A stretch of 64,000 nt of DNA. It comes from Actinomycetota bacterium. Lineage in GTDB: Bacteria > Actinomycetota > Geothermincolia > Geothermincolales > RBG-13-55-18. Each line of letters starts with the position of its first letter. The stretch's first letter is position 1. A model generated the notes under the pieces. That model was given only the letters and a program-made list of their open reading frames with translations. It was not told the origin of the DNA and ran no database searches. The DNA lies in NCBI GenBank assembly GCA_014360645.1, contig JACIXD010000015.1, positions 43,192-107,191 of the forward strand, written 5' to 3'. The translations under genes were made by a program, and so were the position numbers. Shown one piece after another: positions 4,668 through 49,909 of the stretch.

Positions 4668-4952
4668 GCGTCCCGGCAGGCAGGGGACCTGCTTGAGCGC
4701 CGCGGGAGCAGGGAGCGCCCCGCCCGGACCCCGGGAGGGGCGGCGCTGCGCCGGGCGGGGCGACGTTTACGGAAGGCTTTGCTCAGGCGTAATAGCGTCC
4801 CGGCAAATAGGGGACCTGCTTGAGCGCCGCGGGAGCAGGGAGCGCCCCGCCCGGACCCCGGGAGGGGCGGCGCTGCGCCGGGCGGGGCGACGTTTACGGA
4901 AGGCTTTGCTCAGGCGTAATAGCGTCCCGGCAAATAGGGGACCTGCTTGAGC
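4668..4952. repeat. 127-bp tandem duplication of a gene 3' end, 2.2 copies
   Basis: The block GCGTCCCGGCA... starts at 4668, 4795 and 4922, an exact 127-bp period; the third copy diverges after 4952, where it runs into the coding sequence of the small membrane protein. On the minus strand each unit holds the last codons of that gene (reading PYLPGRYYA-stop) plus its 3' flank. Each full unit also contains a perfect 12-bp inverted repeat (CGCCCCGCCCGG / CCGGGCGGGGCG; 4716-4727 with 4751-4762, and 4843-4854 with 4878-4889), which could act as a hairpin terminator although no T-run follows. This looks like tandem duplication of the 3' end, not a CRISPR. Confidence 0.85.
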
Positions 4953-5095
4953 AGGTGGACGATGAAACGTCTCCTCGATTCGTCCAGGCGCGCGAACCGC
5001 ACGGCTAGCAGGCCCAGCGCCAGGACCAGGAAGACGGGCATCAGCTTTCCCGCCATGCCCCCGCCGCCGGTCTCGGCTTTTCCGCTCTTCAGCAT
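4910..5095 (-). CDS. Small membrane protein, LLxQVPxLPxRYY family (61 aa)
   Basis: A 61-aa protein with one transmembrane helix (LMPVFLVLALGLLAVRFA) and a conserved basic C-terminus DESRRRFIVHLLKQVPYLPG followed by RYYA. The last 25 residues are almost identical to a second small protein at 48165-48317, and a diverged third at 12880-13029 keeps LLxQLPxMPxRYF. All three lie directly downstream of a phytoene-desaturase-like flavoprotein; the gap here is 51 bases. AGGAGGT sits four bases before the ATG, and Met14 is an alternative start. I know no named family. I infer a membrane anchor or small subunit for the flavoprotein. Its 3' end is part of a 127-bp tandem duplication. Confidence 0.75.
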   Translation of the reverse strand: MLKSGKAETGGGGMAGKLMPVFLVLALGLLAVRFARLDESRRRFIVHLLKQVPYLPGRYYA

Positions 5096-5146
5096 GTGGA
5101 CCTCCTGGGTCGATCATCTACATCCGGCACTTTTGCCCGTTTCCCT

Positions 5147-6643
5147 TCACTCGTACTTCTCGATGAGCCGCGAGGCGATGTATCCCGATGCGACGGCCGA
5201 GGGCACCCCCCCGCCGGGGTGGGTGGAGGCGCCGGTGAGGTAGAGCCCCCTGATGGACTTGGACTTCGCCGCCGGCCGGAATACCGCCTGGGCGGGAAGG
5301 TCCATCTGCAGGCCGTATATGGCCCCGCCGGGCGAGAGCAGGCGGCGCTCGAAATCCAGCGGGGTGGAGACCTCGAGGACCTTCACGTGGTCCTTCAGGC
5401 CGGGTATTGCCTTCTCCGAGAGCCCCTCGATCATGCGCTCCGCCACGCGCTGTTTCTCGCGGTCCCAGTCGGTACCCGAGAGGCGGTAGGGGCCCATGCC
5501 CATGATGTTGAGCACGTGGCAGCCCTCCGGGGCCATGGAGGGATCGGACTCCGTGGGCCAGCAGATAAGGCCGTGCACCTGCTGCGGTATCTCCCCCCTG
5601 CGGTATTCGTTCCACCAGAAGTCGTTCATCATCTCCAGGGGGCCGATGGTCAAGCTGTGGTGTGCCTCCAGGGGTGGGCGGTAGTCAAGCCCCACGTAGA
5701 GCATGACGCAGGACATGGAGACCTCGTAGCTCTTGATGCCGAAGCGGGCCAGCCAGGGAAGGTGCTCCTCGCCGATCATCTCCAGGTAGAGCTTCTTGGC
5801 GTTGACGTTGGAGACCACCAGGTCGGAGGTTATCTCGGTCCCGTCCGCCAGGCGCACCCCCTCAACCCTGCGGTCCCGCACCATGACCCTGTCCACCTCG
5901 GTGCCCAGCCTCACCTCCATGCCCAGCCTCTCGCCGCAGCGCCGGAAGGCCTCGGGGATCCGGATCATGCCGCCGCGCGGATACCAGATGCCCTCGTGTT
6001 CCGAGTAGGGGATGAGGGCGATGAAACCGGGCGCGAGCTCGGGCGGCAGGCCGCAGTAGAAGGACTGGAAGGACATGGTCTGCTGCACCACGTCGTTCTT
6101 GAAGTACTTCTTGATCACGTCCTGGTAGCTGGTGAAGAAGAGGGGGAGGAACTTGAGCATGCGCGGGTTCTTGAGGCCCATCTTCATCATGTCCGCCATG
6201 CCGTTGCAGGGGTTGGTGAAGAAGGCCTCGATGGTCTGCTTCATCATGTCGGCGAAGTAGTCCGCGAGCTGGTACCATTGCCTGCCGTCCTCGGGGGAGA
6301 TGGCGGAGATCACCTCCGCCGTCCCCTCCAGGGAAAGGGGATAGTTCACCCGGGAGCCGTCCTCGAAGATATAGCTGTAGATGGGATCGCAGAGCATGAG
6401 TTCCACCTCCGCCTGGAAGGAGGTGCCAAGAGCCTCGAAGGCCTTCTCGATGGGGTTGATCACCTCCACGATGGAGGCTCCCACGTCGAACCGGAAGCCG
6501 TCCTTCTCGAAGGTGGAACAGCATCCCCCCACCCGATCGCTCTGCTCCAGCACCAGCACCTTGCGGCCCTGCCTGGCCAGCAGGGCGCCCGCGGAGATGC
6601 CCCCGCATCCGGCTCCGATCACGATCACGTCGTAGTCCGCCAT
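5147..6643 (-). CDS. Phytoene-desaturase-like FAD oxidoreductase, copy 1
   Basis: A 498-aa flavoprotein of the CrtI/CrtISO/RetSat-like NAD(P)/FAD family. The N-terminus has the Rossmann motif VIGAGCGG and the ribose-binding Glu33 (VLVLEQSDRVGG); the C-terminus has the second FAD motif GLYLTGASTHPGGGVPSAV. Family members desaturate, isomerise or saturate long isoprenoid or other hydrophobic chains. No phytoene synthase or prenyl transferase is nearby, so carotenoid synthesis is unlikely. It follows two FAD-linked oxidases and a CCG-type Fe-S protein on the same strand (about 180 bases after the last) and precedes a small membrane protein. It closely resembles the copies at 46640 and 48410 (shared start ...CCSTFE and end ...STHPGGGVP). 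Confidence 0.85.
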   Translation of the reverse strand: MADYDVIVIGAGCGGISAGALLARQGRKVLVLEQSDRVGGCCSTFEKDGFRFDVGASIVEVINPIEKAFEALGTSFQAEVELMLCDPIYSYIFEDGSRVNYPLSLEGTAEVISAISPEDGRQWYQLADYFADMMKQTIEAFFTNPCNGMADMMKMGLKNPRMLKFLPLFFTSYQDVIKKYFKNDVVQQTMSFQSFYCGLPPELAPGFIALIPYSEHEGIWYPRGGMIRIPEAFRRCGERLGMEVRLGTEVDRVMVRDRRVEGVRLADGTEITSDLVVSNVNAKKLYLEMIGEEHLPWLARFGIKSYEVSMSCVMLYVGLDYRPPLEAHHSLTIGPLEMMNDFWWNEYRRGEIPQQVHGLICWPTESDPSMAPEGCHVLNIMGMGPYRLSGTDWDREKQRVAERMIEGLSEKAIPGLKDHVKVLEVSTPLDFERRLLSPGGAIYGLQMDLPAQAVFRPAAKSKSIRGLYLTGASTHPGGGVPSAVASGYIASRLIEKYE

Positions 6644-6823: not shown

Positions 6824-8437
6824 TTACAGCGCCGCCTTCTTCATGCGCAGGGTGTCGTAGTCGAAGCGGCGGAGGCAGATGTTGTTGGGGTCGTAGATCA
6901 TCTTCATGTCCCGGTAGGCGTCCACATAGGTGCCCGCCTGGGGGAAGACGAAGCCGATGAGGTCGTGCAGCGGCCCCGCCCCCTCCACCAGCGCCCACAC
7001 CCCGAAGCATATCCCCGATCCCTTGCGGAAGGAGGCAGCCATGGCCGCCAGGGTCCCGGAGATGGTGCGCAGGCTGTCCTCGGGGTTGGACTGGTCGATG
7101 AAGATGTCGAACTCGATGAAGCCCAGCCGCCCCATGTCGTAGGGCTGGAAATAGGTGGCGATGAGATCGGCGGAGATGACGTTGTCGTCCGTACCCACCT
7201 GCTGGGTCATGGCCCGCATCATCTCCCGGTTGATCTCCGGGAGGTACTCAAGGTGGTCGAGGCCGAAGCCCACGAAGAAGGAGCCCTTCACCCGCTGCAC
7301 GCGCACCGACTCGCGGAAGAACTTGGTAAATTTATCCACACCGAGGATGCGTCCCTCCGAGATGTCCTCCACCACCTCCCAGTCCATGAACTCGAACTCC
7401 GGCGCTACCGCCAGGATGTCCTCCTCGCACACCTTGCACTTGACCTCCGTCTCCTCCTCGGAATAGCCGCCGGTCACCGGCACCACGTAATGGCGCGGGA
7501 ACATGGGGATGAGCTTGGAGGACTCCGCGTTGGTCTCCGCCAGGAAGATGCCCATGTAGGTGTTCTGGAAGTAGGCGTTCTCGATGACGATGTTGCGCTG
7601 GCTGATGGCCTTGAGGGCGGGGGCGATGTGATCCCAGCTCTCGGAGTCGCTGATGGGCACGGTGAGCTTGACGTGCTCGGGGTTGGGATAGAGGCGCAGG
7701 GTCATCTCGGTGATGATGCCCATGGTCCCCAGGGAGCCGCGGATGAAGGCCCGCACGTCGGGGCCGGGTCCCGGCATGTGCACGGGGTCGGCCCCGTATG
7801 CCGTCGGGCCTCCCACCATCACCTGCCCCTCGGGGAGCACGATCTTGTAGCCGATGATGTGGTCCAGCCCCACCCCGTACTTGTTGGCCAGGGTGGAGAT
7901 GTTGCCCATCATGATGTTGGAGACCACCGAGGCGTTGGCGGAGGTGGAGGGATTGATGAGGCGCAGGCCGCGCTTGAGGGTCTCCGTCTGCAACTGGGCG
8001 AAGGTCACCCCGGGGCCGATGGTGCAGAACATGTTCTCCTCGTCGATCTCCATGATCTCGTCCATGCGCCGCAGGTCGCAGAGGAGGCCGCCGTAGGGCG
8101 GGATAGTCATGCCCAGGGTGTTGAGGCCCGTGCCGTAGGGGGTGACGTCTATGAGGTACTTGTTGGCGATCTTCATGATCGCCACCACGTCCTCCGTGGA
8201 GCCGGGCAGGGCCACGATGTGGGGATGGTTCATGGGCACCACCGACTGGTCGCGGGCGTAGGCCACGGTGATGTTGATGTCGTTGGAGACCCATTCCTCG
8301 CCCAGCGCCTCCTGCAGCTCGCGGTAGGCCTTCTCCAGGTTCTCCGGCAGGTTGTGGGTGCCGTCGATCTCGTGCTTCACCGGCACCCTGATGACCTTGC
8401 GCTCGCGCAGGTCCTTCTGCAGGTCCTTTCCCTTCAC
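6824..8437 (-). CDS. FAD-linked oxidase (PCMH-type, vanillyl-alcohol oxidase / GlcD family)
   Basis: A 537-aa flavoprotein. The PCMH-type FAD-binding domain covers roughly residues 70-260, with VALPGSTEDVVAIMKIANKY, VTPYGTGLNTLG and a glycine-rich IRGSLGTMGIITEMTLRLY. The C-terminal half is the substrate-binding cap, ending in the usual DPNNI motif. Length and order match p-cresol methylhydroxylase and vanillyl-alcohol oxidase flavoproteins more than short GlcD. It begins at the base after the stop of the Fe-S CCG protein and is co-transcribed with it, and a second FAD oxidase lies upstream, so it probably oxidises a hydroxy-acid or alcohol and passes electrons to the Fe-S partner. No covalent-flavin residue can be assigned by eye. 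Confidence 0.85.
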   Translation of the reverse strand: MKGKDLQKDLRERKVIRVPVKHEIDGTHNLPENLEKAYRELQEALGEEWVSNDINITVAYARDQSVVPMNHPHIVALPGSTEDVVAIMKIANKYLIDVTPYGTGLNTLGMTIPPYGGLLCDLRRMDEIMEIDEENMFCTIGPGVTFAQLQTETLKRGLRLINPSTSANASVVSNIMMGNISTLANKYGVGLDHIIGYKIVLPEGQVMVGGPTAYGADPVHMPGPGPDVRAFIRGSLGTMGIITEMTLRLYPNPEHVKLTVPISDSESWDHIAPALKAISQRNIVIENAYFQNTYMGIFLAETNAESSKLIPMFPRHYVVPVTGGYSEEETEVKCKVCEEDILAVAPEFEFMDWEVVEDISEGRILGVDKFTKFFRESVRVQRVKGSFFVGFGLDHLEYLPEINREMMRAMTQQVGTDDNVISADLIATYFQPYDMGRLGFIEFDIFIDQSNPEDSLRTISGTLAAMAASFRKGSGICFGVWALVEGAGPLHDLIGFVFPQAGTYVDAYRDMKMIYDPNNICLRRFDYDTLRMKKAAL

Positions 8438-9637
8438 CTACACCACCTCCCCCAGCCCGGAAGCCAGCACCTCGTAGATGTCGTACACCGGCAGGCCGCC
8501 CGTGGTCGCGAAGTGGTCCTCGCAATGCGGGCAGGCGGTGACCAAGGCCTCGGCTCCCACCGCCCGCGCTTCCTCCATGCGCTCGGATGCCGTCCAGGAC
8601 GCCAGCTCGGGTCTGGCGGCGCGTACCCCACCGCCGGCGCCGCAACACCAGGAGTTCTCGCGGTTACGCTGGAACTCCAGCAGCTCCAGTCCCGGCACCG
8701 CCGCCAGCAGACGGCGCGGCTGCTCGTAGATCTCGCACCACCTGCCGAGCATGCAGGGATCGTGGTAGGCGGCCCTGAGGGCGCTCTCGCCCTGGAAGCG
8801 CAGGGCCTTCTTCTTGAGCGCCCTGGCGAGGATCTCCGCGGGATGCACCACCTCCAGGTCCATGGCCTTGCCGTATTCGTCACGCAGGACCTGCAGGCAG
8901 TGGGGGCAGGGGGCGATGATGCGCGAGGCGCCGGTGGAGCGGAAGAGGTCGATATTCTCCAGGGCGCGCTCCTCGAAGCCGTCGCGGTCTCCCAGGGCGA
9001 GGTTGAAGCTGCGGCAGCAGGGCTCGGCATCCCCCAGCACCCCGATATCCAGTCCCGCCGCCCTCAGCAGCCTGACCAGGGAAGCGAGCCTCCCGCGCAT
9101 CCTCTCGTCGGAGGCGTAGGCGCAGCCCACGAAGAGCAGGTTCTCGGCCTTTTCCCGGCTGAGGTCCTTGACCCCGAGTTCCCGTGCCGCCTCGCCCTTG
9201 AAACCTTTCTCCAGCCCCATGGGGTTGTCCCTGTCGGCGGTGGAATCGAGCATGGCGCGGTGACCCTCCAGGAGGCCCCACCCCTCCTCCACCGCCTTCT
9301 CCCGCATGAGCTGGATGATGCGCGTGGTGTGCAGGCCCTTGAGAGGGAAGCACATCTCCTGGCAGAGCCCGCAGAGGTTGCAGGAATAGATGATCTCCGC
9401 CGTCTTGGGGGTGGGTTCGAACTCCAGATTGGTGATGGCCCTGGCGATCTCCATCATCCCCGCGGCGTAGTAGGACTCGAAGCGGTAACGGGTGCCGCAG
9501 GGACAGTTGTAGGAGAAGCGCGCGCTCTCGAACACCTGCACGTTCATGGACTGGCACATCTTGCACTTGCCGCATACCCAGTAATCGTCACGGTAGTCGG
9601 TGAGCTTCTCCCTTTTCCTGGTAAGCCCGCGTTCCAT
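8438..9637 (-). CDS. CCG-domain Fe-S oxidoreductase (GlcF/HdrD-like)
   Basis: A 399-aa protein. The N-terminus has WVCGKCKMC and CPCGTRYRF cysteine clusters, then a 4Fe-4S motif CNLCGLCQEMC around residue 90. The C-terminal half has two CCG-type domains: GDAEPCCRSFN with CPHC, and NSWCCGAGGG with CPHC. This is the layout of glycolate-oxidase GlcF and heterodisulfide-reductase HdrD subunits, which bind non-cubane clusters and accept electrons from FAD-linked oxidases. It is encoded between two such oxidases with 3-base and 0-base spacing, so a three-subunit membrane-associated dehydrogenase is a fair inference. The extra N-terminal cysteines are not part of standard GlcF. Confidence 0.88.
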   Translation of the reverse strand: MERGLTRKREKLTDYRDDYWVCGKCKMCQSMNVQVFESARFSYNCPCGTRYRFESYYAAGMMEIARAITNLEFEPTPKTAEIIYSCNLCGLCQEMCFPLKGLHTTRIIQLMREKAVEEGWGLLEGHRAMLDSTADRDNPMGLEKGFKGEAARELGVKDLSREKAENLLFVGCAYASDERMRGRLASLVRLLRAAGLDIGVLGDAEPCCRSFNLALGDRDGFEERALENIDLFRSTGASRIIAPCPHCLQVLRDEYGKAMDLEVVHPAEILARALKKKALRFQGESALRAAYHDPCMLGRWCEIYEQPRRLLAAVPGLELLEFQRNRENSWCCGAGGGVRAARPELASWTASERMEEARAVGAEALVTACPHCEDHFATTGGLPVYDIYEVLASGLGEVV

Positions 9638-9640: not shown

Positions 9641-11011
9641 CTACACCCCCTCCATGAGCTGCCCGGGATTGAGCAGGCCCTTCGGGTCCAGGACCCGCTT
9701 GAGGTTCTTGATCATGCGGATGTTCTCGGGGTCCATGCGGGAATAGACCAGCTCCGCCACCTCGCCACGGGGACGGTTGACGTGCGCTCCCCGGTCGAGG
9801 ACGGTCCGGTAGGCACGCAGCCAGGCCTCGCGCGCCCCGCCGTCCCCCTCCGGGTGGTGGATGTCCGTCTCGCAGTAGAAGGCGGCGCCGTAATAGGAGG
9901 GGATGGCCACCCTCCCCAGAGGATACCCGGGCGCCTCCCCTTCCACCGCCGCGAACAGGCCCGCCACCTTGCCCGCGAAGGTGAAGTAGTCCACCGCCGT
10001 CACCTCGCCGCGGTAGTAGGCGCGCTCGGACAGGTACCACGGCCACTCGAACTTCTCCCGCATGCGGCGCGCCAGCTCCGCGTCTCCCTCCCTGCCCCCG
10101 CAGGAGAGCGCCATCCCGCGCGTCTGGCGGTCCCATATCTCCACCAGGGAGGGGTGGTTGTCGAAGCCGAAGACCACGCTCCAGGGCGGCAGCTCCCCCG
10201 CCAAGGAGTCCGCCTCCCCGGCGCTCTCCGAGAGCAGCACGGAGAGGTAGCGGCGGTCAGCGACCACGCACTCGAAGACCTGGTCGTGGCGGGAGGCGAG
10301 ACGCGCCGCCCTCACCGCCGCCTCCGCGTCCTCGAAGGCGTAGACGGTGACCCTGCGCTCCTCCCAGCGCTTGTAGATCCACGCCTTCATGGCATAGGGT
10401 ATGCCGAAGATGTCCTCGCTGGCATGGAAGAGATTGGAATACATCGGCCCCAGGTCCTCTCGGAACTCCGAGTGGCCGTCGGGAGTGTACTGGTCGGTGC
10501 CGCTCATCCACAATCGCCCGTCGGCCAGGATGGCGTGGAAGGTGGTGAACTGGTAGGGCCGGGTGGCGCCGTTGGCCAGGATGACGTCGCGGTCCAGGTA
10601 AGAGCGCACGATGGAGGAGGAGGTGGCCGCCGCGGGCATGAGGATACGGAGGCCGCGGGCGTCCAGCTCTCTTTTCAGGCCCTCGAAGGTGACGCCGTAT
10701 TCCACGAAGGCCAGCAGGTTGGGCTCGTCGATGCGCACGATGCGGTCCATTCCCCTCAAGTCGATGAGCACCCCGCCGGACTCCGCCACCGCGGGGTCCA
10801 CGAAGCCGCGCCGGTAGGTGAAGATGGGGATGCCGTTCTCGTAGGCGCAGGAGGCGATGTCCGCCAGCTCCAGGCTGTCCCGCGGTAGAGCGAGTACCAG
10901 GTCCAGCCGCGGCGGCGGCGGCCGGAAGTAGTCCTTGAGGGCGTCCGTCCCTTCCCGAATCGCCCCCGGGCCCGCGGCATCCCTGAGTCTTTCTCTGGTC
11001 CTGACGCTCAT
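9641..11011 (-). CDS. FAD-linked oxidase (GlcD-like), second paralogue
   Basis: A 456-aa PCMH-type flavoprotein. It carries DLVLALPRDSLELADIASCA, IFTYRRGF in place of the usual G-x-G-T motif, and the C-terminal LKRVLDPKGLLNPGQLMEG, a hallmark of GlcD/D-lactate dehydrogenase proteins. The central 'glycine-rich plus SLG' part is diverged (ILMPAAATSSSIVRSYLDRD), so FAD binding may be weaker or altered. It lies three bases upstream of the CCG protein. Having two FAD oxidases around one Fe-S protein recalls the GlcD-GlcE-GlcF arrangement, with this protein in the GlcE-like place. Confidence 0.8.
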   Translation of the reverse strand: MSVRTRERLRDAAGPGAIREGTDALKDYFRPPPPRLDLVLALPRDSLELADIASCAYENGIPIFTYRRGFVDPAVAESGGVLIDLRGMDRIVRIDEPNLLAFVEYGVTFEGLKRELDARGLRILMPAAATSSSIVRSYLDRDVILANGATRPYQFTTFHAILADGRLWMSGTDQYTPDGHSEFREDLGPMYSNLFHASEDIFGIPYAMKAWIYKRWEERRVTVYAFEDAEAAVRAARLASRHDQVFECVVADRRYLSVLLSESAGEADSLAGELPPWSVVFGFDNHPSLVEIWDRQTRGMALSCGGREGDAELARRMREKFEWPWYLSERAYYRGEVTAVDYFTFAGKVAGLFAAVEGEAPGYPLGRVAIPSYYGAAFYCETDIHHPEGDGGAREAWLRAYRTVLDRGAHVNRPRGEVAELVYSRMDPENIRMIKNLKRVLDPKGLLNPGQLMEGV

Positions 11012-11273: not shown

Positions 11274-12692
11274 TTATCCGCACCGCGCACGTTCCCCTCC
11301 CGCCCGCGCCCGGCGCATACCGTAGCGGGCCAGGGCCCAGGCGGCCCCCACACACCGCTCCACGGTGTCGTACACCGGCACCCCGATATCCTCCAGGGAA
11401 GTGAACCAGCGGCGGCGGTCCTCCTCCGAAGCCCCGAGGATGCAGGCCAGCAGCGGCTTTTGCGGGTGCTCCTCCCTGATCTCCGCCAGCAGGGCCGCGG
11501 CGTCGAACTCCGACTCCGGCACCAGGGTGAAAACCGCCATGAGCATGTGCATGTCCTTTTCCGAGGCAAAGGCGCGGAGGATCACGCGGTAGGCGTCCTC
11601 CACCGTGCCCTGCAGGGTCGCGGCCCAGATGTCCATGGGGTTGCCGAGGCGCACCCACGGCGGCAGACCCTCTCCCGCCAGGCGTTCCGCCCGCGGCGAG
11701 GGCGGAGGGAGGGGCAGCCCCCGGCGCTGGCAGGCGTCGGCCACCAGCACCGTGCCCGCGCCGGTGATGGAGACCACCCCCAGGTTGGGTCCGGCGGGAA
11801 CCGGACAGTAGGAGAGGGCCTTGGCCGCGTCGAAGAGGCCCTCGATGCCCTCCACCGCAATCACCCCCGCCTGGGCCAGCGCCCCTCGCAGCACCGCTTC
11901 CTCTCCGGCCAGGGTGCCGGTATGACTGGCGGCCATCCTGCTCCCCAGCTCGCTCCCGCCGCCTTTGAGCATGAGCACGGGCTTGGTGAGCGTGACCTCC
12001 GACGCCAGTTCCAGGAATTCCCTGCCCCTCTGGATCCCCTCCGAGTAAACGGCGATGACCCCGGTGGAGGCGTCGTCCCGGAGGTAGGCGAGCACGTCCA
12101 CCTCGTCCACGTCCGCCTTGTTGCCCAGGCAGGCCACCTTGGAGATCCCGAAACGCTGGGTGGAGCTCACCCAGCGCGCGAACCCGCCCGCGAAGAGCCC
12201 GGTCTGGGCGACGATGGAGATGTCTCCCGCCCGCAGGGGGTCCAGGGACATGAGGGAGGTGACGAAACCGGAGGAGGTGGAGATGGTCCCCACGCTGTTG
12301 GGGCCCATCATGCGCATGCCGCGCTCGCGCACCGCGCGCTTAAGGCGCCTCTGCATCTCCGCCCCCTCGGCCCCCGCGTCGGAATACCCCGCCGCGCAGA
12401 CGATCACCCTCCTCACCCCGGCGTCGGCGCAGTCCCGGACGAAGGGGAGCATGTGGTCCCGGGGGAGCACCCCCACCGCCACCTCCACCGGCTCTCCGAT
12501 GTCTCGCAGGGAGGGGAACGCGGGCACCCCTAAGATCTCCCCGGCCCGGGGATGGATGGCGTAGATGCGCCCGCGGTAGCCGAAGCGCAGCAGGTTGGAC
12601 AGGGTCACGTTCCCGAGCTTGGCGGTCGAGCTGGAAGCCCCGGCCACGGCCACGCTCGCCGGGTTGAAGAAAGGCTCCATGTCCTGTACCAC
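11274..12692 (-). CDS. NDP-forming acyl-CoA synthetase alpha-subunit-like protein
   Basis: A 472-aa protein with a CoA-binding domain at the start (FFNPASVAVAGASSSTAKLG, then GRIYAIHPRAGEILGVPAF) followed by succinyl-CoA-ligase-like flavodoxin domains. The active-site His that carries phosphate is visible in SHTGTLAG. Members convert acyl-CoA plus ADP and Pi to acid plus ATP, or the reverse. The ATP-grasp beta part is missing and no beta gene is adjacent, so it either partners with a distant gene or acts in regulation. The 262 bases before the FAD oxidase hold no gene. It may head the redox operon that runs down to 4910. Confidence 0.82.
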   Translation of the reverse strand: MVQDMEPFFNPASVAVAGASSSTAKLGNVTLSNLLRFGYRGRIYAIHPRAGEILGVPAFPSLRDIGEPVEVAVGVLPRDHMLPFVRDCADAGVRRVIVCAAGYSDAGAEGAEMQRRLKRAVRERGMRMMGPNSVGTISTSSGFVTSLMSLDPLRAGDISIVAQTGLFAGGFARWVSSTQRFGISKVACLGNKADVDEVDVLAYLRDDASTGVIAVYSEGIQRGREFLELASEVTLTKPVLMLKGGGSELGSRMAASHTGTLAGEEAVLRGALAQAGVIAVEGIEGLFDAAKALSYCPVPAGPNLGVVSITGAGTVLVADACQRRGLPLPPPSPRAERLAGEGLPPWVRLGNPMDIWAATLQGTVEDAYRVILRAFASEKDMHMLMAVFTLVPESEFDAAALLAEIREEHPQKPLLACILGASEEDRRRWFTSLEDIGVPVYDTVERCVGAAWALARYGMRRARAGGERARCG

Positions 12693-12879: not shown

Positions 12880-13029
12880 TCAGACGAAATAGCGGAAGGG
12901 CATCTTGGGCAGCTGGGTGAGCAGGAGCTTGGCGTAACGCCAGTCGGAGGGCTCCGTGGTCGCGGCCAGCCATGCCGCCAGCCCGCCCGCGATCCCCAAC
13001 GCGATCACCGCTTTCGTCCCCGCCTTCAT
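12880..13029 (-). CDS. Small membrane protein, diverged LLxQLPxMPxRYF family (49 aa)
   Basis: A 49-aa reading frame, too short for routine calling. It has ATG at 13029 with a GGGAGGCGAGG ribosome site directly upstream, and stop TGA at 12880. The sequence is one hydrophobic helix (AVIALGIAGGLAAWLAA), then EPSDWRYAKLLLTQLPKMP and a terminal FRYFV. The ending aligns with the small proteins at 4910 and 48165: LLxQ, P, two residues, P, x, R-Y-aromatic. It lies 78 bases after the phytoene-desaturase-like gene at 13108, as the other two do. Shared position and motif support a real gene; function is unknown. Confidence 0.7.
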   Translation of the reverse strand: MKAGTKAVIALGIAGGLAAWLAATTEPSDWRYAKLLLTQLPKMPFRYFV

Positions 13030-13107: not shown

Positions 13108-14625
13108 TCAGGCGTTGTCCCTCACGATGAGGCCGCCGGTGATGATCCCCCCCGCCACCACCGCGGGCACCCCTCCGCCGGGATGGGTGGAGGCTCCCGC
13201 CAAATAGAGGTTCTTGATGCACTTGGAGCGGTTGGCGGGACGGAACACCGCCATGTGGCTCAAGTCGGTCTGGATGCCGTAAACGGCTCCGCCCGGATGC
13301 AGGAGCATGCGCTCGAGGTCCTTGGGCGTCGCCATGTCCCGATAGACCACGTGCTCGGAGAGGTCCGGGATGATATAGCGCTCGATGGTGGCGATGGCCT
13401 CGTCTATGTACCTCTCCTTGTAGCGGTCCCAGTCGTTGCCCGCCAGGTTGTAGGGAGCCAGCCCCATGTGGGTCAGCACGTGCTTTCCCGGGGGGGCCAG
13501 CGAGGAGTCGATCTTGGAGGCCCAGGAGATGAGGCCCATCACCTCCACGCGCCCGTCCTTCTCGTAAAGCCTGCCCTTGAGGTAATAATCGCTCCAGTAG
13601 TCGTTCATCACCTTGGGGTCGGTCAGGGTCAGGGTGTGGTGGGCGTTGAGGGGCGGTTCGTAATCTATTCCCAGGTAGATCATGGGGCAGGGCATGGAGA
13701 GGACCAGCGAGCGCACCCCTCTCCAGACGTGCCAGGGGAGGTGCTCCCTCCCGATCATCTCCTCGTAGAGCTTCTTGGCGTTGATGGCCCCCACCACGTT
13801 GCGGGCGGTGATCTCGGTGCCGTCCCACAGCTCCACTCCCACGGCCCGGCGGTTCTCCACCATCACCCGCACCGCGCGGGCGTCGAAGCGCGTCTCGCCC
13901 CCCAGGTCCTCGAAGGCCTGCTGGATGCCGGCGGGGATGCGTATCATGCCTCCCTCGGGGTAATAGATGCCCTCGTGCTCCAGGAGCCCCACGATGGCAT
14001 ACAGCCCGGCACACATGTCCGGCGGCAGGCCGGCGTAGAAGGATTGGAAGGCCATGGAAGCAAGCACGTCGGAGTTCTTGAAATATCTGGCAACTATCTT
14101 CTGGTGGGTGGTCACGAACATGGGGAGCACCGAGATCATCTGGGGATATTTGACGATAAGCCTGATGGTGTCCATGAACCCCAGGGAAGGCGCGTAGAAG
14201 AAGTTGTCCACCAGCCCCTTGATCTTGGGCGTGTAGTCCTCAGCGAACTTCAGGAAAGCCCGGGCGTCCTCGGGGGAGAACTCCGCGATCACCCGCGCCG
14301 TGCCCTCCACCGAGGTGGGATAGGCGAAGCGCACCCCCCGGGTGTTGTCGCAGTAGTCGTAGATGGGGTCCACGGGGATGAGGGGGATGTATCTCTCCCG
14401 GGGCAGCTCCAGGCGCTTGAAGAGCTCGTCGAAGGCGCGGGTGACCTCCACCACGCTCGCCCCCACGTCGAAATGGAAGCCCTCCGCCTCGTAGGTGGAG
14501 CAGCAGCCGCCGATGCGCTGCGACTGCTCGAGCACCAGGGTCTTCATCCCCGCCTTCTGACAGAGGGCTGCCGCCGAGAGACCGCCGATCCCCCCGCCTA
14601 TGACCACCACGTCGTAATCGCTCAT
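13108..14625 (-). CDS. Phytoene-desaturase-like FAD oxidoreductase, copy 2
   Basis: A 505-aa CrtI-like flavoprotein. It has the N-terminal dinucleotide motif VVVIGGGIGGLSAAAL, the ribose-binding Glu in LVLEQSQRIGGCCST, and the C-terminal FAD motif NLYLAGASTHPGGGVPAVVA. Sequence drift is larger than between the copies at 5147, 46640 and 48410, and its associated small protein is also more diverged, suggesting they evolved as a pair. It has its own AT-rich promoter (14671-14699) and so is a separate transcription unit from the molybdenum locus upstream. Substrate unknown. Confidence 0.85.
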   Translation of the reverse strand: MSDYDVVVIGGGIGGLSAAALCQKAGMKTLVLEQSQRIGGCCSTYEAEGFHFDVGASVVEVTRAFDELFKRLELPRERYIPLIPVDPIYDYCDNTRGVRFAYPTSVEGTARVIAEFSPEDARAFLKFAEDYTPKIKGLVDNFFYAPSLGFMDTIRLIVKYPQMISVLPMFVTTHQKIVARYFKNSDVLASMAFQSFYAGLPPDMCAGLYAIVGLLEHEGIYYPEGGMIRIPAGIQQAFEDLGGETRFDARAVRVMVENRRAVGVELWDGTEITARNVVGAINAKKLYEEMIGREHLPWHVWRGVRSLVLSMPCPMIYLGIDYEPPLNAHHTLTLTDPKVMNDYWSDYYLKGRLYEKDGRVEVMGLISWASKIDSSLAPPGKHVLTHMGLAPYNLAGNDWDRYKERYIDEAIATIERYIIPDLSEHVVYRDMATPKDLERMLLHPGGAVYGIQTDLSHMAVFRPANRSKCIKNLYLAGASTHPGGGVPAVVAGGIITGGLIVRDNA

Positions 14626-14918: not shown

Positions 14919-16124
14919 TCAGCGCAGCATCTCTATCTCCACCTCGGCGCCGGGCTCCAGGCGGCCGACGTCCTCGGGAAGCACGGCAAGGGCGTTGCCG
15001 AGCACCATGGAGCGCAGGATGCCGCTGCCCTGGGGGCCGGTGGGGCGGACATGGTAGCGGCCGTCGCGCCAATCCGCGATCACGCGTATGAACTCCGTGC
15101 GTCCCTCTCTGCGCCCCATGGGGGCGTCGAGGACCGCGGTGACGCGGGGTCGGAAGAGCTCGCGGCGCCCCATCATCTTGAGGAGCGCGGGGCGCACGAA
15201 CTGCTCGAAGGAGACCATCACCGAGACGGGGTTCCCGGGCAGGCCGAAGAGGGGCTTGCCGCCTATGTGGCCGAAGGCCTGGGGCTTGCCGGGGCGCATG
15301 GCCACCTTCCAGAAGTTCATCTCCCCCAGCTTTCCCAGCACCTCCTTGACCATGTCGTAGTCGCCCACCGAGACCCCTCCGCTGGTGACGAAGAGGTCCA
15401 CCCTTTCCAGGTTGTCGAGGATGGTCCGCTCCAGGAGGGCGGCGTCGTCCCGCACCACGCCCAGGCGCAGGGGCTCCGCCCCCGCCTCGCGCACCATGCC
15501 GAAGAGGGTGTAGCTGTTGGAGTCGCGGATCTTCCCCGGCGCCAGCTCCTCCTCCACTCCCACCAGCTCGTCGCCGGTGGAGATGATCCCCACCCTGGCG
15601 CGGCGGAAACACCGGGGGCGGGCGTATCCCAGGCTGGAAAGCATCCCCAGTTCCGCGGGCCCGATAGGCGTCCCCGGTGCCAGCACCGTCTCGCCCTTCC
15701 TCACGTCCTCTCCCGCCCGGCGCACGTTGGACCCCCGAGCCACCGCCTTCAGGACCAGCACGCTCCCCTCCCCGGCGCGGGTCTGCTCCACGGGGACCAC
15801 GGCGTCGCACCCCTCCGGCACCGGCGCTCCGGTCATGATGCGCAGGGCCTGTCCCCGCTCCAGGGCCACCCGGGGCGCGTACCCCGCAGCCAGGTCGCCC
15901 AACACCACCAGCTCCACGGGGCTCTCCTCCGAGGCGCCGGCCACGTCCTCCGACCTCACCGCGTAGCCGTCCATGGCCGAGTTGTCGAAGGGGGGGATGT
16001 CATGCCGCGCCACCGCCTCCTCCGCCAGGGTGAGCCCCAGCGCTTCGAGGAGAGGCGTCTCCGCCGTCTCCAGCGTCCCCACCGCCTCCAGCACCTTCTC
16101 CCTCGCCTCTTCCACCCTCAACAT
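14919..16124 (-). CDS. moeA: Molybdopterin molybdenumtransferase MoeA
   Basis: A 401-aa protein of normal MoeA length when started at the ATG at 16124 (MLRVEEAREKVLEAV), which has a GGGAGG site nine bases upstream; an upstream in-frame ATG would add 56 residues without family character. Domain markers: PPFDNSAMDGYAV (N-terminal), the MoCF domain with STGDELVG, TSGGVSVGDYDMV and GLPGNPVSVMVSFEQF, and the C-terminal beta domain. MoeA inserts molybdate or tungstate into adenylylated molybdopterin. It is downstream of a tungstate ABC transporter in the same direction, so the likely product is a tungsten or molybdenum cofactor. Confidence 0.95.
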   Translation of the reverse strand: MLRVEEAREKVLEAVGTLETAETPLLEALGLTLAEEAVARHDIPPFDNSAMDGYAVRSEDVAGASEESPVELVVLGDLAAGYAPRVALERGQALRIMTGAPVPEGCDAVVPVEQTRAGEGSVLVLKAVARGSNVRRAGEDVRKGETVLAPGTPIGPAELGMLSSLGYARPRCFRRARVGIISTGDELVGVEEELAPGKIRDSNSYTLFGMVREAGAEPLRLGVVRDDAALLERTILDNLERVDLFVTSGGVSVGDYDMVKEVLGKLGEMNFWKVAMRPGKPQAFGHIGGKPLFGLPGNPVSVMVSFEQFVRPALLKMMGRRELFRPRVTAVLDAPMGRREGRTEFIRVIADWRDGRYHVRPTGPQGSGILRSMVLGNALAVLPEDVGRLEPGAEVEIEMLR

Positions 16125-16402
16125 CCCCAACGACCTCCCGTGCTTACCGGGAAGCGCCGCTGCGCCTCCGTGTTCCAAAGGTATCCCGAAAACGGCTTCC
16201 GGCCCAACCCGTCCCCGCGGACAGGCGCCGCCGCGCCGCGACCCACCGTACTCATCCCGCCCGGAAGACGCCCTCCCCGCCGCGCGCCGCATGCGGGCCG
16301 CGGCGCGTATGCCATATTCTGGTAAACATTCGCGGACCGCCGCCGCCTCCCGCGTCTCCGGTCACCGCGCGGGCGCGGCGTTTCCGCACCTGCGCCGACA
16401 CC

Positions 16403-17233
16403 TCACTGTGTCGGAGGCCTCCAGGGACCCGTCCCCAGATGTCCCTGCCCCGCCTCCGAGAGCAGGTAGGAGATGAACTCCAGCGCGCCGGCCACGTCGG
16501 TATCGGGGTAGGTGAGGGTGCTCACCACCATGGCGTGATAGGAGTCCTCCAGGTCCTCTCCCCCTTCCCTGACCACCTCCAGGCCTAGCTCTCCCGCCAG
16601 CCTCTCGAAGGCATGGCGCATGGTGAGGGCATACGCCCTCTCCGCCGCCGCCTCCCGCAGGGCTCCCTCCTCGCTCTCCATGGAGCGCCGCAGCCAGTCT
16701 CCCGCCTCCTCCAACCCCGCCAGGGACCATAGGCCGCCGGCCTTGATGGCGGCGCCGGACCCGTCCACGCGGAGCACGAAGGGTTGCCCCGCCTCCGCTA
16801 TCCTCCTCAGGGCTCCGGGGATCCCGTCCGCCTCCCGGGCGCCCGCGGGATCTCCGGGCGGCCCCACCAGCATGTATTCTCCCCGCATGACCTCCTGCCT
16901 GTCCGTCACGTAGCCCGACCTCTCCAGGCTCTCCTCGTCGTGGGATACATGGGTGAGGATGAGGTCGCACTCGCCGTGGCGCGCCATGTCGCACACCCGG
17001 TCGTCGGTGTCCGTGACCACCTCCACCGCGCGCCCGCTCCGGCGCTGGAAATCGCTCGCCCATGCCTCGAGGAGCCCGCTCCCCTCCAGGTCGCTGGTGG
17101 CCGCCAGCACCAGGGGAGGCCTTCCCTCCGACCCGCAGCCCGGTAAAGCGCAGAACAGCAGGGCGCAGAGGAGCACGGCCGCGGAAGCGCCGATCCCACG
17201 CCGTGACAACGATATCTTCGCCATGGGGTACAT
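16403..17233 (-). CDS. Tungstate/molybdate-type substrate-binding lipoprotein (TupA-like paralogue)
   Basis: A 276-aa protein starting at 17233 or 17224. It has a lipoprotein signal (LLCALLFCALPGCGSE, lipidated Cys in LPGC) and an anion-binding PBP fold: VLAATSDLEGSGLLEAWASD corresponds to the TTTSTQDSGLLD region of TupA but with changed ligand residues (ATSDLEGS). It lies about 220 bases after the ABC ATPase, in the same direction. Because a canonical TupA is encoded first in the same cluster, this may bind a related oxyanion or act as a second receptor. GC-rich open sequence upstream would add 59 residues without a signal and was not used. Confidence 0.75.
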   Translation of the reverse strand: MYPMAKISLSRRGIGASAAVLLCALLFCALPGCGSEGRPPLVLAATSDLEGSGLLEAWASDFQRRSGRAVEVVTDTDDRVCDMARHGECDLILTHVSHDEESLERSGYVTDRQEVMRGEYMLVGPPGDPAGAREADGIPGALRRIAEAGQPFVLRVDGSGAAIKAGGLWSLAGLEEAGDWLRRSMESEEGALREAAAERAYALTMRHAFERLAGELGLEVVREGGEDLEDSYHAMVVSTLTYPDTDVAGALEFISYLLSEAGQGHLGTGPWRPPTQ

Positions 17234-17449
17234 TCTACACCAGGCGGCCGCCCCGCCTCGACGCACGCAGCCGGCGCCGCCGCCGCGCCGCGGACCGTGC
17301 CGTACATCTCCCTTCAGGGAAGAACGTCCATGCCGTCGAGGAGCCCGATGGACGGAGCGTTTCACGCCGGGCACCGCATCCCGGCGGGAGAAAACGCCGC
17401 GCCGCGGCAAAGGGCGACGGGGGGCGGTAACGCGCCGGGCACCGCCATC

Positions 17450-18547
17450 TCAGCGGGAGGTGAAGGGCATGACGTGGACGGCGGTGGCCTTGACCGCCGC
17501 GGTGACCTCCGCCCCGGGCTCGATCCCCATCTCCTCGCGGGAGGTCCGGGTAATATACGCGGAGAAGGGGAAGCCGCAGTCCAGGCCCACCCTCACCAGC
17601 GCCCCCATGGGCCTGACCGCGACGACACGCGAGCGCAAACGGTTGCGCACCGATCCCGCCTCCGTGGTCCCGGGCAACAGGGCCACCTCCTCGGGATGGA
17701 TGAGCACCTTTGCCCTGGAGCCCGGCGGCAGCTCGCACAGGGCCTCGATCTCCACGCCGGCGATGTCCAGGCGGCACATGCCCTCGCGGCATTCCCTGAC
17801 CACCCCCTCCAGGAGGTTCTCCGCGCCCAGGAACTCCGCCACGGTTTCGCTGGCGGGCCTGCCGAACACCTCGCCCGGCCTCCCCGTCTGGAGCAGCTCT
17901 CCGCCGATGAGCACCGCCAGGCGGTCGGCGATCTCCAGCACCTCGTGGTAGTCGTGGGATACGTATATGGCGGTCACCCCCATCTCCCGCGCCAGGCCCG
18001 AGATGTACGCCAGCAGGTCCCGGCGGGAGGGGGCGTCGAGGGAGGCCAGGGGCTCGTCCAGGAGCAACAGGCGGGGCTTGAGCACCATGGCCCTGCCCAG
18101 GGCCACCTTCTGCGCCTCGCCCCCGGAGAGGGTCATGGCGTCGCGCTCCGCGAGATCCGCCAGGTTCAGCCTCGCGAGCATCTCGCCGGCCAGGCGCCTC
18201 CTCTCCTCCCTGCCCACCCGGCGCGCCTTGAGGCCGTACTCGACGTTCGCCCGCACGCTGCGCTTGAAGAGCAGCGGTTCCTGGAAGATCATGGCCATCT
18301 GCCTCGCCAGGTGTTTTCTCTTCCCGCGGTCCATGCCCGAGAGGCGCGTGCCGTCCCAGTAGGCCACCTCCCCCCGGGCAGGCTTCTCCAGCAGGTCGAG
18401 GATGCGCAGCAGGGTGCTCTTGCCAGAGCCGTTGGGGCCGACCACCGCCAGGATCTCCCCCTCCACGACCTCCAGGCGTTCCACGTCGAGCACCTTGCGC
18501 CCGCCGTAGAAATGCCGCAGGCCCTCGACGGTCACCAGCGCCCTCAA
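17450..18547 (-). CDS. tupC: Tungstate/molybdate ABC transporter ATP-binding protein
   Basis: A 365-aa ABC ATPase. Walker A GPNGSGKST, Q-loop FQEPLLF, signature LSGGEAQKVALGRAMV, Walker B RLLLLDEPLASLD and H-loop VSHDYHE are all intact. The last roughly 120 residues form a TOBE/mop-like regulatory domain (VLIHPEEVALL ... RSRVVAVRPMGALVRVGLDC), as in ModC/WtpC, which binds oxyanion and inhibits transport. It overlaps the permease gene by four bases (ATGA), so translation is coupled. Confidence 0.92.
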   Translation of the reverse strand: MRALVTVEGLRHFYGGRKVLDVERLEVVEGEILAVVGPNGSGKSTLLRILDLLEKPARGEVAYWDGTRLSGMDRGKRKHLARQMAMIFQEPLLFKRSVRANVEYGLKARRVGREERRRLAGEMLARLNLADLAERDAMTLSGGEAQKVALGRAMVLKPRLLLLDEPLASLDAPSRRDLLAYISGLAREMGVTAIYVSHDYHEVLEIADRLAVLIGGELLQTGRPGEVFGRPASETVAEFLGAENLLEGVVRECREGMCRLDIAGVEIEALCELPPGSRAKVLIHPEEVALLPGTTEAGSVRNRLRSRVVAVRPMGALVRVGLDCGFPFSAYITRTSREEMGIEPGAEVTAAVKATAVHVMPFTSR

Positions 18548-46639: not shown

Positions 46640-48136
46640 CTATCCGTGGCGTGCTACCAGGTCGGCGGCGATGATGCCCGAGCCGATGGTGGTGGGTACG
46701 CCTCCACCCGGGTGAGTCGAGGCCCCCGCCAGATACAGCCCTTCCACGCTCTTCGACCTGGAGCGGGGACGGAAGACGATCTGAGCGCAGAGGTCCTGCT
46801 GCAGGCCGTAGATGGCCCCGCCGGGCGAGAGCAGGCGCCGCTCGTAATCCAGGGGGGTGATGACCTCCGCCACCTTCACATGTTCCGCCAGGCCTGGCAC
46901 CGCCCTGCGGGAGAGATAGGACACGGCGTCCTCCAGGAATCGCGGCTTCTCGCGGTCCCAATCGGTGCCGCTCAGCGCGTAAGGCCCCATCATGATCACG
47001 TTTACGGCGTGGCATCCCTCCGGCGCCAGCGAGGGGTCCGACCTGGTCGGCCAGCATACCAGCCCGAACTGTTCCCGGGGAAGAAGGCCTTTCTCCAGGC
47101 GGTTCCACCAGTAGTCGTTCATCTCCTCGAAGGGAGCGGTGATGATGGTGTGGTGGGCCTCCAGCGGAGGCTCGTAGTCCACCCCCAGGCAGACCATCAC
47201 CGCGGAGATGGAGGGACGGTAGCTCTTGATGCCGTAGCGCGCCAGGGGATGGAGGTGCTCCTCGTCCACCAGGTCCAGGTAGAGGGTCTTGGCGTTGACG
47301 TTGGAGACCACCGCCAGCGCGCTGATCTCGCTGCCGTCGGCCAGCGCCACGCCCTGCACACGGCGGTCGCGCACCAGGACCCGCTTCACCCTTGCGTTGA
47401 GACGCAACTCCATGCCGTGCCTCTCGCCGCAGCGGGCTAGGGCCTGGGGGATGGCGACCATGCCGCCGCGCGGGTACCACACCCCCTCGTGCTCGGTGTA
47501 CCCGAGGATGGAGAACACCCCCGGGGCGAGCTCCGGCGGGAGCCCCACGTACCAGGACTGGAAGGACATGGTCTCCCTCACCCTGCTGCTCTTGAAGAAC
47601 TTCCCCAGCACCTCCTGGTAAGAACCGGTAAAGAGGTCCCGGTATTTGAGCAGCCCGGGGCTGGCGCGGAAGATCCTCGCCAGGTCCGAGAAGGAGTTGA
47701 CAGCGCTGGTGAAGAAACCCTTCTGGGTCTCCGCCAGGAAGCCCCCGGTGTAGCGCGCGAAATCCGGGTAATTCCCGCCATCCTCTTCCGAGAGGCGCGA
47801 GAGCGCCTCCACCGTCCCCTCCAGGGAAAGGGGTACCGTGACCTTGGCCCCGTCCCTGAGCACGCAGGAATACACGGGGTCGCAGGGGATGAGGTCCACC
47901 TCCTCCTGGAAGGTGGTGCCCAGGCGCCTGAAGGCCTCCTCGATGGAGTGGATGACCTCCACGATGGAGGCGCCCACGTCGAAGCGATAGCCCTCCCTCT
48001 CGAAGGTGGAACAGCAGCCCCCCACGCGGTCGCTCTGCTCCAACACCAGCACCCTGCGTCCCTCCCGGGCCAGGATGGCCCCCGCCGACAGGCCTCCTCC
48101 GCCGGCCCCGATGACGATGACGTCGTAATCAGGCAT
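46640..48136 (-). CDS. Phytoene-desaturase-like FAD oxidoreductase, copy 3
   Basis: A 498-aa flavoprotein very close in layout to copies 1 and 4: VIVIGAGGGGLSAGAILARE, ribose-binding Glu in VLVLEQSDRVGGCCSTFE, and C-terminal GLYLAGASTHPGGGVPTTIG. It is the last gene of the catabolic cluster, 28 bases after the second small LLxQVP membrane protein, which it shares with the upstream copy 4. Length is the same as copy 1 (498 aa), suggesting recent duplication. Substrate unknown. Confidence 0.85.
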   Translation of the reverse strand: MPDYDVIVIGAGGGGLSAGAILAREGRRVLVLEQSDRVGGCCSTFEREGYRFDVGASIVEVIHSIEEAFRRLGTTFQEEVDLIPCDPVYSCVLRDGAKVTVPLSLEGTVEALSRLSEEDGGNYPDFARYTGGFLAETQKGFFTSAVNSFSDLARIFRASPGLLKYRDLFTGSYQEVLGKFFKSSRVRETMSFQSWYVGLPPELAPGVFSILGYTEHEGVWYPRGGMVAIPQALARCGERHGMELRLNARVKRVLVRDRRVQGVALADGSEISALAVVSNVNAKTLYLDLVDEEHLHPLARYGIKSYRPSISAVMVCLGVDYEPPLEAHHTIITAPFEEMNDYWWNRLEKGLLPREQFGLVCWPTRSDPSLAPEGCHAVNVIMMGPYALSGTDWDREKPRFLEDAVSYLSRRAVPGLAEHVKVAEVITPLDYERRLLSPGGAIYGLQQDLCAQIVFRPRSRSKSVEGLYLAGASTHPGGGVPTTIGSGIIAADLVARHG

Positions 48137-48164: not shown

Positions 48165-48317
48165 TCAGGCGTAGTAACGGCCCGGCAGGTACGGTACCTG
48201 CTTCAGGAGGTGCAGGATGAACCGCCTCCTGGATTCGTCCATGCGGCTGAAGGCGTAAGCGGCCGCCGCCGCGGCTACCGCCAGCACGCCCATGCTCTTT
48301 CCGACGCCTTTCTTCAT
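48165..48317 (-). CDS. Small membrane protein, LLxQVPxLPxRYY family (50 aa)
   Basis: A 50-aa protein from the ATG at 48317, which has AAGGAGGT four bases upstream; a longer frame from 48413 is not favoured. One helix (MGVLAVAAAAAAYAFS) is followed by MDESRRRFILHLLKQVPYLP and GRYYA. The last 25 residues differ from the protein at 4910-5095 at only a couple of positions (L/M before DESRRR, V/L after RFI). It is encoded between two phytoene-desaturase-like genes, 92 bases after the first and 28 bases before the second. Confidence 0.78.
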   Translation of the reverse strand: MKKGVGKSMGVLAVAAAAAAYAFSRMDESRRRFILHLLKQVPYLPGRYYA

Positions 48318-48409
48318 CTCTACCTCCTTCTTCACCGTCCGCCGCCGGGTCCCGGCGGGCATGCACGTAAGCCGCCTCCCCTCTCCCCGCCTCGCCGCGA
48401 CCGCCACCC

Positions 48410-49909
48410 TCAACCCTCACAGCGTTCGACGAGCCCGGCAGCGATGATCCCCGAGGCCACCACCGACGGCAGCCCGCCCCCCGGATGGGTGGATGCCCCC
48501 GCGAGGTACAGCCCCTTTATGTACCTGGACCTGGCCGCCGGCCTGAACACCGCCGAGGAGGGGAGGTCCATGTCCAGCCCCAAGATGGCGCCCTCGGGGG
48601 TGAGCAGCCAGCGCTCGTAGTCCCTGGGGGTCAGCACGTCCATCACCTCCACGTGGTCAGCGAGCCCCGGGATGGCCCTCTCGCTGAGCATCCGGAGCTG
48701 CCTCTCCCCGTAGGCCTCCTTGTCCCGGTCCCAGTCCAGCTCCCTCAGGTGATAGGGTCCGGAGAGGACGATATTGAGCACGTGGCGACCCTCGGGAGCC
48801 ATGGAGGGGTCGGAAAAGGTGGGAAAGCATACCAGGCAGTACGGCTCCTTCGGCAGCATGCCCTTCTTCATATCCCCGAACCAGTAGCGGTTGGACTCCT
48901 CCATGGAGACGGTGACGATGTTGTGGTGGGCCTCCAGGGGCGGCCGGTAGCTGAGCCCCACGTTGATCATGGGGGCGGAGGCGGAAAGCCGGTAGCTCCT
49001 GATGCCGTACCTCGCCAGCCATGGCAAGTGCTCCTCGCCGATCTTCTCCAGGTAGAGGGTTTTTGCGTTGATGTCGGAGACCACCACCGGCGCGGTCACC
49101 TCCGTCCCGTCCGCCAGGGTCACTCCCTGTACGCGGCGGTCACGCACCATCACCTTCTCCACCCGCTGCCTCAGGCGAACCTCCATGCCGTATCTCTCCC
49201 CGCAGCGCCGCAGGGCCTCGGGGAGGGCGATCATGCCTCCCCGGGGGAAGAAGACCCCCTCGTGCTCGGCGTAGGAGAGGAAGGCGAAGATACCCGGCGC
49301 AAGGGCGGGGGGCTGCCCGCAGAACTTCCCGGGATAGGAGAGCGAGTCCAGGACCCGCTCGTCCTTGAAATAACCCCGCATGACCTCCTCTAAGGAGCGG
49401 TTGAAGAGGGGGAGGAACCTGAGCAGGTGGGGGTCCTTCATCATCACCCTGGCCATGTCCGCCATGCCGTTCATGGGGCTGAGGAAGAACCCCTCCACGG
49501 CAGTGCGCATGAAATCTCCCACGTAGCGCGCATATTCCAGCCATGCCCCGGCGTCCGCGGGAGATATGCGGGAGATCACCTCCGCCTTGGCCTCGATGGA
49601 GGCGGGATAGGCGAGGCGCGATCCGTCCTGGAAGATGATGCCATATACCGGGTCGCAGGGCTCCAGCTCCACCTCCTCCCCCAGGCGCGTCCCCAGCCTC
49701 TCGAAGGCGATCTCGAAGGGGCGCAGGATCTCCAGGATGGTGGCGCCCACGTCGAAACGGAAGCCCCCGCGCTCATAGGTGGAGCAGCATCCGCCGATGT
49801 TCGCGCCCTGCTCCAGCACCAGCGTCCGGCGGCCCTGCCTCGCCAGCAGCGCTCCCGCGGTGAGGCCCCCGAGCCCCGCCCCGATGACCACGACGTCGTA
49901 ATCCGGCAT
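48410..49909 (-). CDS. Phytoene-desaturase-like FAD oxidoreductase, copy 4
   Basis: A 499-aa flavoprotein from the ATG at 49909 (GGGGGGAGGTCG site, start MPDYDVVVIGAGLGG); a longer frame from 49975 has no support. It has the FAD motif VVVIGAGLGGLTAGALLARQ, ribose-binding Glu in TLVLEQGANIGGCCSTYE, and C-terminal GLYLAGASTHPGGGLPSVVA. It is followed by a small membrane protein and then copy 3. It lies about 200 bases after the beta-keto acid cleavage enzyme gene. Confidence 0.85.
   Translation of the reverse strand: MPDYDVVVIGAGLGGLTAGALLARQGRRTLVLEQGANIGGCCSTYERGGFRFDVGATILEILRPFEIAFERLGTRLGEEVELEPCDPVYGIIFQDGSRLAYPASIEAKAEVISRISPADAGAWLEYARYVGDFMRTAVEGFFLSPMNGMADMARVMMKDPHLLRFLPLFNRSLEEVMRGYFKDERVLDSLSYPGKFCGQPPALAPGIFAFLSYAEHEGVFFPRGGMIALPEALRRCGERYGMEVRLRQRVEKVMVRDRRVQGVTLADGTEVTAPVVVSDINAKTLYLEKIGEEHLPWLARYGIRSYRLSASAPMINVGLSYRPPLEAHHNIVTVSMEESNRYWFGDMKKGMLPKEPYCLVCFPTFSDPSMAPEGRHVLNIVLSGPYHLRELDWDRDKEAYGERQLRMLSERAIPGLADHVEVMDVLTPRDYERWLLTPEGAILGLDMDLPSSAVFRPAARSRYIKGLYLAGASTHPGGGLPSVVASGIIAAGLVERCEG

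Follow-up and report, generated by a model that had tools for sequence, protein, structure and literature searches.

We asked why genes for very small proteins stand beside genes for CrtI-like flavoproteins, a family annotated as phytoene desaturases, in a 64,000-nucleotide stretch of an Actinomycetota genome of the class Geothermincolia (hereafter the window). An initial annotation had pointed to three small open reading frames (ORFs), each shortly 3' of a CrtI-like gene, with a shared C-terminal motif and strong ribosome sites, and had proposed that their conserved ends dock onto the flavoprotein. The three ORFs are real, all lie on the minus strand and carry the motif as described, and strong AGGAGG-like ribosome sites precede them. 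A plus-strand reading of the same coordinates was rejected, as it takes the wrong strand and gives other proteins. The features are listed in the table, in which CrtA to CrtE are our own labels for the five CrtI-fold copies in the window.

Table. Features of the window, with the six larger proteins found at other loci (L numbers) in the last line.
Feature	Position	Strand	Evidence
Microprotein 1 (61 aa), A-type tail	4910..5095, stop included	-	ORF, own-genome search, profile
CrtI-like flavoprotein CrtA (498 aa), partner of microprotein 1	5147..6643	-	TIGR02734, 334 bits
GlcD-like FAD-binding oxidase, same operon-like run as CrtA	6824..8437	-	PF01565
CCG-domain iron-sulfur protein	8438..9637	-	PF02754
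Second GlcD-like FAD oxidase	9641..11011	-	PF01565
NDP-forming acyl-CoA ligase alpha-like protein	11274..12692	-	TIGR02717, 366 bits, under cut-off 567.15
Microprotein 2 (49 aa), B-type tail	12880..13029	-	ORF, profile
CrtI-like flavoprotein CrtB (505 aa; not phytoene synthase), partner of microprotein 2	13108..14625	-	TIGR02734, 288 bits
CrtI-like flavoprotein CrtC (498 aa), directly 3' of microprotein 3	46640..48136	-	TIGR02734, 338 bits
Microprotein 3 (50 aa), A-type tail	48165..48317	-	ORF, own-genome search, profile
CrtI-like flavoprotein CrtD, directly 5' of microprotein 3	48410..49909	-	TIGR02734, 322 bits
CrtE (881 aa), CrtI-fold domain fused to ferredoxin-reductase and 2Fe-2S module	51382..54027	-	TIGR02734, 149 bits, under cut-off
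Six 149-aa proteins	L179-L183 and L185, about 2528-3037		

Microproteins 1 and 3 had been called nearly identical over their last 25 residues, and 23 of these are indeed common to both. Only two of the 25 residues differ, whereas 14 of the 25 codons do, indicating selection on the peptide; recent or chance copying of DNA between the two genes was ruled out by the same codon count. When microprotein 3 was searched against the contigs of its own genome, microprotein 1 was recovered at E 3.6e-15, microprotein 2 weakly (E 0.058) and a fourth family member, on another contig (C5), at E 7.9e-8. Microprotein 2 matched the family profile at E 5.4e-15, although the profile contains microprotein 2 itself. 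In a first search of 59 genomes, 18, the own genome included, gave a match at E <= 0.01; together with the E of 3.6e-15 within the own genome, this excludes chance as the source of the likeness. At 4656..4909 on the minus strand, two tandem 127-nt partial copies were seen, which repeat the 3' end of the microprotein 1 gene together with the GC-rich DNA that follows; the tail, KQVPYLPGRYYA, is still encoded in one of them, without the helix.

A profile of 30 rows was then used to measure the family. Within the class it returned 55 rows, comprising 53 near-full microproteins in 18 of the 31 genomes (own included), the partial duplicate of the window and one 15-residue match. The last of these (G027:C243, L129:7931-7978) resembles the tail and has its stop correctly placed, with neither a helix nor a CrtI gene nearby, and is possibly a remnant or a chance match. 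A nineteenth genome, G024, was scored as family-free by the search although it has a microprotein gene, with one base unreadable, that lies between two CrtI genes (L192:2485-2676). At two loci (L095:9618-9910 and L111:11717-12192), two tandem microprotein genes follow one CrtI gene, and one copy of the L111 pair has drifted and ends in RLYV. The same profile was run on 396 genomes of the phylum, 31 of them the class, with at most 16 candidates scored per genome; 21 genomes matched, namely the 18 of the class and three of the 365 others, the latter weakly (E 0.006-0.008). A GTDB-wide scan with a single tail pattern, which would miss divergent tails, matched 38 stretches, of which 28 loci were confirmed and none added a new taxon. 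All 28 adjoin a CrtI-fold gene, upstream in 26 and downstream in the other two.

In a database of 5.8 billion protein sequences, at least 330 clusters matched the general profile at E <= 0.01 (7,993 candidates scored) and 83 matched a B-type profile, and no Pfam domain was present among the matches listed for either profile (120 for the general one). In a Pfam scan of 30 microproteins, no family was hit by two or more of them (best E 0.0031), NCBIfam gave nothing for P0005 and nothing above cut-off for P0003 and P0004, and a PDB search gave no relative (best E 0.17). Our literature search, in which subscription journals were thinly covered, found no paper on such a small partner of CrtI. The initial annotation had known of no described family with this motif, and the Pfam, NCBIfam and PDB searches agree with it. 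On these sequence comparisons, we consider the family to be real, undescribed and, among the phylum genomes searched, nearly restricted to the class.

Gene neighbourhoods were assessed in wide stretches round the family members and in short ones round other CrtI hits; with the window, these cover 145 of at least 150 CrtI places. A CrtI-fold gene lies less than 700 nt away on the same strand in all 53 cases, upstream in 51 (median gap 60 nt, longest 507 nt) and downstream only in two. A downstream same-strand CrtI-fold gene was present for 26 of the 53, 24 of which have one upstream as well. The consistent flavoprotein neighbourhood that the initial annotation expected was thus observed throughout the near-full members, and the motif stood without such a neighbour only in the 15-residue partial match. 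Three contexts recur with variants. Context I has the order CrtB, microprotein B, acyl-CoA ligase alpha, GlcD, CCG, GlcD, CrtA and microprotein A. In context II, a thiolase/hydratase cluster also contains the CrtE fusion, CrtD and CrtC, and the microprotein comes after CrtC or, as in the window, between CrtD and CrtC. In context III, the microprotein is placed between two CrtI genes.

The tail might bind some other membrane target, either another enzyme of the operon or both flanking CrtI proteins as a scaffold, so that the link with the flavoprotein would be indirect. The members with CrtI genes on both sides are compatible with such a role, as are the GlcD and CCG proteins that the A operon also encodes; however, GlcD and CCG adjoin microproteins in context I only, and CrtI is the sole constant neighbour across the contexts. 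We therefore regard an indirect link as improbable. Meanwhile, the gene downstream of the microproteins varies: it may be a CrtI gene, the one for the acyl-CoA ligase alpha protein or a convergent FadD, and in some cases no gene is close. This bears on the idea that the microprotein is a leader or ribosome-arrest peptide, targeted to the membrane, which controls the next gene, its conserved C-terminus being the stalling sequence. SecM, MifM and VemP are arrest peptides that combine an N-terminal membrane segment with a conserved C-terminal stretch and control a fixed downstream gene, and a variable N-terminal helix followed by a C-terminus conserved up to the stop recalls SecM and MifM. The microproteins differ in that their constant gene is upstream (51 of 53); a constant, regulated downstream gene was not found, as a CrtI-fold gene follows only 26 of 53, and a similar tail also ends a protein of 149 aa, described below. 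An arrest function is thus very unlikely.

Next, we compared tail sub-types (A, B and III) with CrtI clades, both of which are our own definitions, on a tree of 155 unique CrtI-fold ORFs; a microprotein was counted whichever side of the CrtI gene it lay on. A microprotein stood beside every CrtI gene of clade B (12/12) and beside 23 of 37 in clade A, 17 of 27 in IIID, 19 of 27 in IIIU and two of seven in E. None was seen in a 33-member clade (two of these genes have little downstream sequence), in clade M (0/6) or beside six others (0/6). CrtI genes with no adjoining microprotein are also common within the partnered clades (14/37 in A, 10/27 in IIID and 8/27 in IIIU, a few at contig ends), suggesting that the microprotein may not be needed by every enzyme. 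When IIID and IIIU were both taken as III, tail sub-type agreed with CrtI clade for 52 of the 53 microproteins; the one that disagrees adjoins CrtE at the end of a contig, at which a truncated A-like CrtI gene starts. An operon simply inherited as a unit would also produce the clade match and the neighbourhood.

The aligned tails read S-x-x-R-[YF]-x6-Q-x-P-x-[LM]-P-x-R-Y-[FY]-[AIV]-COOH, followed by the stop. Counted from the stop, three residues are invariant in 53/53, namely R (-19), P (-6) and R (-4); the tail S and the last-but-two Y are each present in 52 and the Q in 48. A hydrophobic 17-mer scoring above 1.6 on the Kyte-Doolittle scale was found in 52 of the 53, so that, by hydropathy, the microprotein is predicted to be a membrane protein with one helix, like the small single-helix subunits of larger enzymes. 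The mean charge is +3.2 on the tail side and +2.9 on the head side; as these are about equal, charge does not settle the topology. Selection was estimated from ungapped comparisons anchored at the C-terminus among 51 distinct members, with close pairs pooled and the pairs not independent of one another. Over the last 24 codons, dN/dS was 0.10/1.01 in A (64 pairs), 0.07/0.88 in B (33 pairs) and 0.09/0.76 in III (76 pairs), whereas over the preceding 15 codons it was 0.64/0.93, 0.43/1.01 and 0.58/0.83, respectively. That is, the ratio is about 0.1 for the tail in three sub-types and about 0.4-0.7 for the codons before it; length differences inflate the helix values, yet the contrast remains large. 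These ratios indicate that the tail is under strong purifying selection and the helix far freer, as expected from the conserved C-terminus and variable helix in the initial annotation, which had taken a ratio near one as a sign against function.

These results leave little room for an unrelated small hydrophobic protein, of a stress or toxin kind, that is simply carried along with the operon. Bacteria commonly have small proteins with a single helix (PMC10903887), yet adjacency in 53/53, the clade match and the selection on the tail all speak against a mere passenger, which we find scarcely credible. The strength of the constraint raises a different question. The microprotein could be a catalytic accessory rather than mainly an anchor, its tail gating or shaping the opening through which substrate or quinone enters the flavoprotein. 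The invariant R, P and R, with Y in 52/53, exceed the constraint of a simple tether, and CRTI can hand electrons to quinones, as stated in the accessible part of PMC3382138; however, the many CrtI genes of the same clades that lack an adjoining microprotein make this role unlikely.

We think it probable, if well short of certain, that the microprotein is a membrane anchor, the conserved C-terminal tail of which docks onto the neighbouring CrtI-like flavoprotein. The helix would lie in the membrane and the tail in the cytosol, where it would bind the flavoprotein, and the tethering may bring the enzyme within reach of a quinone or a lipid-soluble substrate. By eye, the sequences of the partner flavoenzymes show neither a signal peptide nor a membrane helix, so that an anchor subunit is a plausible need. 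Subunits of the CydX and AcrZ type, of about 50 residues with one helix, act on a larger partner; the microproteins resemble them in size and in their single predicted helix, and would likewise act on a larger protein. AcrZ works on the membrane-spanning part of its partner, whereas here the helix varies, the tail is conserved and the partner has a soluble fold. Pantoea CRTI is FAD-dependent and membrane-peripheral, its active form needs membrane association with FAD, it acts on phytoene and it can use quinones; the accessible text mentions no small partner (PMC3382138). If the anchor reading is true, a flavoenzyme family known as membrane-peripheral would have a dedicated membrane partner, and CrtI with its microprotein would form a simple, testable two-protein system.

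Docking was assessed with AlphaFold models of two chains in which CrtI was read through into its microprotein. The flavoprotein part was mostly well folded in both (whole-chain mean pLDDT 86.5 and 84.7), and each model had one helix and a separate tail helix. In the CrtA and microprotein 1 chain, the tail (pLDDT 67-89) was simply a helix with no confident docking; in the CrtB and microprotein 2 chain, pLDDT over the tail fell from 69 to 46 and 28. Both are weak tests because the alignments put many microprotein rows in the wrong place: in alignment A4, 13 of the 19 rows with a microprotein only, and in A5, six of the eight locus microprotein rows, were misaligned at the tail, and alignment A2 was discarded for the same fault. 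Thus, the initial annotation holds for an undescribed, CrtI-tied family whose C-terminus is conserved and whose helix varies, whereas for its proposed docking these two models with weak alignments gave no confident interface. Natural fusions of CrtI and microprotein were sought and rejected: the long frames around some hits (<=594 codons) either read in another frame than CrtI or had a stop codon between them and it, and among 120 CrtA relatives listed, the three above 505 aa (525, 547 and 510 aa) were extended N-terminally and had a C-terminus like that of CrtA, without the tail.

We also scanned the 3' regions of 82 CrtI genes with no microprotein on either side for small hydrophobic ORFs, and one of the 82 had such an ORF outside the family. 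A loose P-xx-(x)-RY ending occurred in 68 of 15,799 ORFs of at least 30 codons at the same CrtI loci; these were the family, the window duplicate, the G024 member, the 15-residue hit, nine scattered ORFs and six proteins of 149 aa. The 149-aa protein has four hydrophobic segments and a similar tail, follows all six CrtI genes of clade M and starts -4 to +5 nt from the CrtI stop, overlapping or nearly abutting it. Its ends, for example RQVPWVYYRYRT and KQLPYAYFRYRT, align without gaps with the microprotein tail. Profile comparison joined the two over 33 C-terminal columns, at E 1.9e-4 when counted as one comparison and with a probability of 48%, which moderately backs the likeness; the tail profile of the B sub-type alone did not match the 149-aa proteins (E 0.13). 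Four of the six were scanned, and none reached the cut-off of a Pfam or NCBIfam family. A search of the 396 phylum genomes with the 149-aa protein matched six, of which G017 has only a microprotein tail hit, leaving five with the full protein.

By these alignments, the initial picture extends to a larger, membrane-type protein with a similar tail beside another CrtI clade. We tentatively suggest, as a possibility about which we remain doubtful, that the RY tail is a modular docking code carried on at least two unrelated scaffolds, microprotein and 149-aa protein, which plugs clade-matched CrtI into the membrane, and that the class has multiplied CrtI for a non-carotenoid lipid pathway. If so, membrane scaffolds can exchange a short tail, and the phytoene desaturase annotation hides a non-carotenoid role that has gone unnoticed.

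The nature of the substrate was approached through the partner enzymes. CrtA, CrtB, CrtC and CrtD exceed the cut-off of the phytoene desaturase family TIGR02734 (238.1 bits) and CrtE does not, while all five are far under the curated cut-offs of carotenoid equivalogs (CrtD, CrtISO, CrtO and others). The model of CrtA has the carotenoid desaturase fold, and its PDB relatives are Pantoea ananatis CRTI (4dgk) and gamma-carotene desaturase (4rep), with which the partner flavoproteins share fold and family. Unlike the setting of Pantoea CRTI, no phytoene synthase was found in the class: phytoene/squalene synthase (PF00494) was not found at E <= 1e-5 in any of the 31 genomes, some of which are incomplete, and was detected in seven of 14 control genomes by the same search. 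Meanwhile, up to 21 CrtI-like matches per class genome were counted (E <= 1e-30). The negative synthase search suggests that the partner enzymes do not act on phytoene and, judged from these sequences, they are probably neither phytoene desaturases nor carotenoid enzymes. The neighbouring ligases, thiolases, hydratase and acyl-CoA dehydrogenase, several of them named by reading, suggest lipid or acyl chemistry. The radical-flavin sterol desaturase offers no model here, since its accessible description states that it lacks similarity to phytoene desaturases (PMC11061730). Relatives of CrtA with 62-63% identity were found in Smithellaceae, Chloroflexi and Anaerolineaceae (P0188, P0214 and P0239). 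The CrtE-type fusion of CrtI fold, ferredoxin-reductase and 2Fe-2S module was also seen in related clusters, and at 14919-21454 the CrtB operon is adjoined by a MoeA-like molybdopterin gene and a run resembling a tungstate/molybdate-type ABC transporter, both named by reading.
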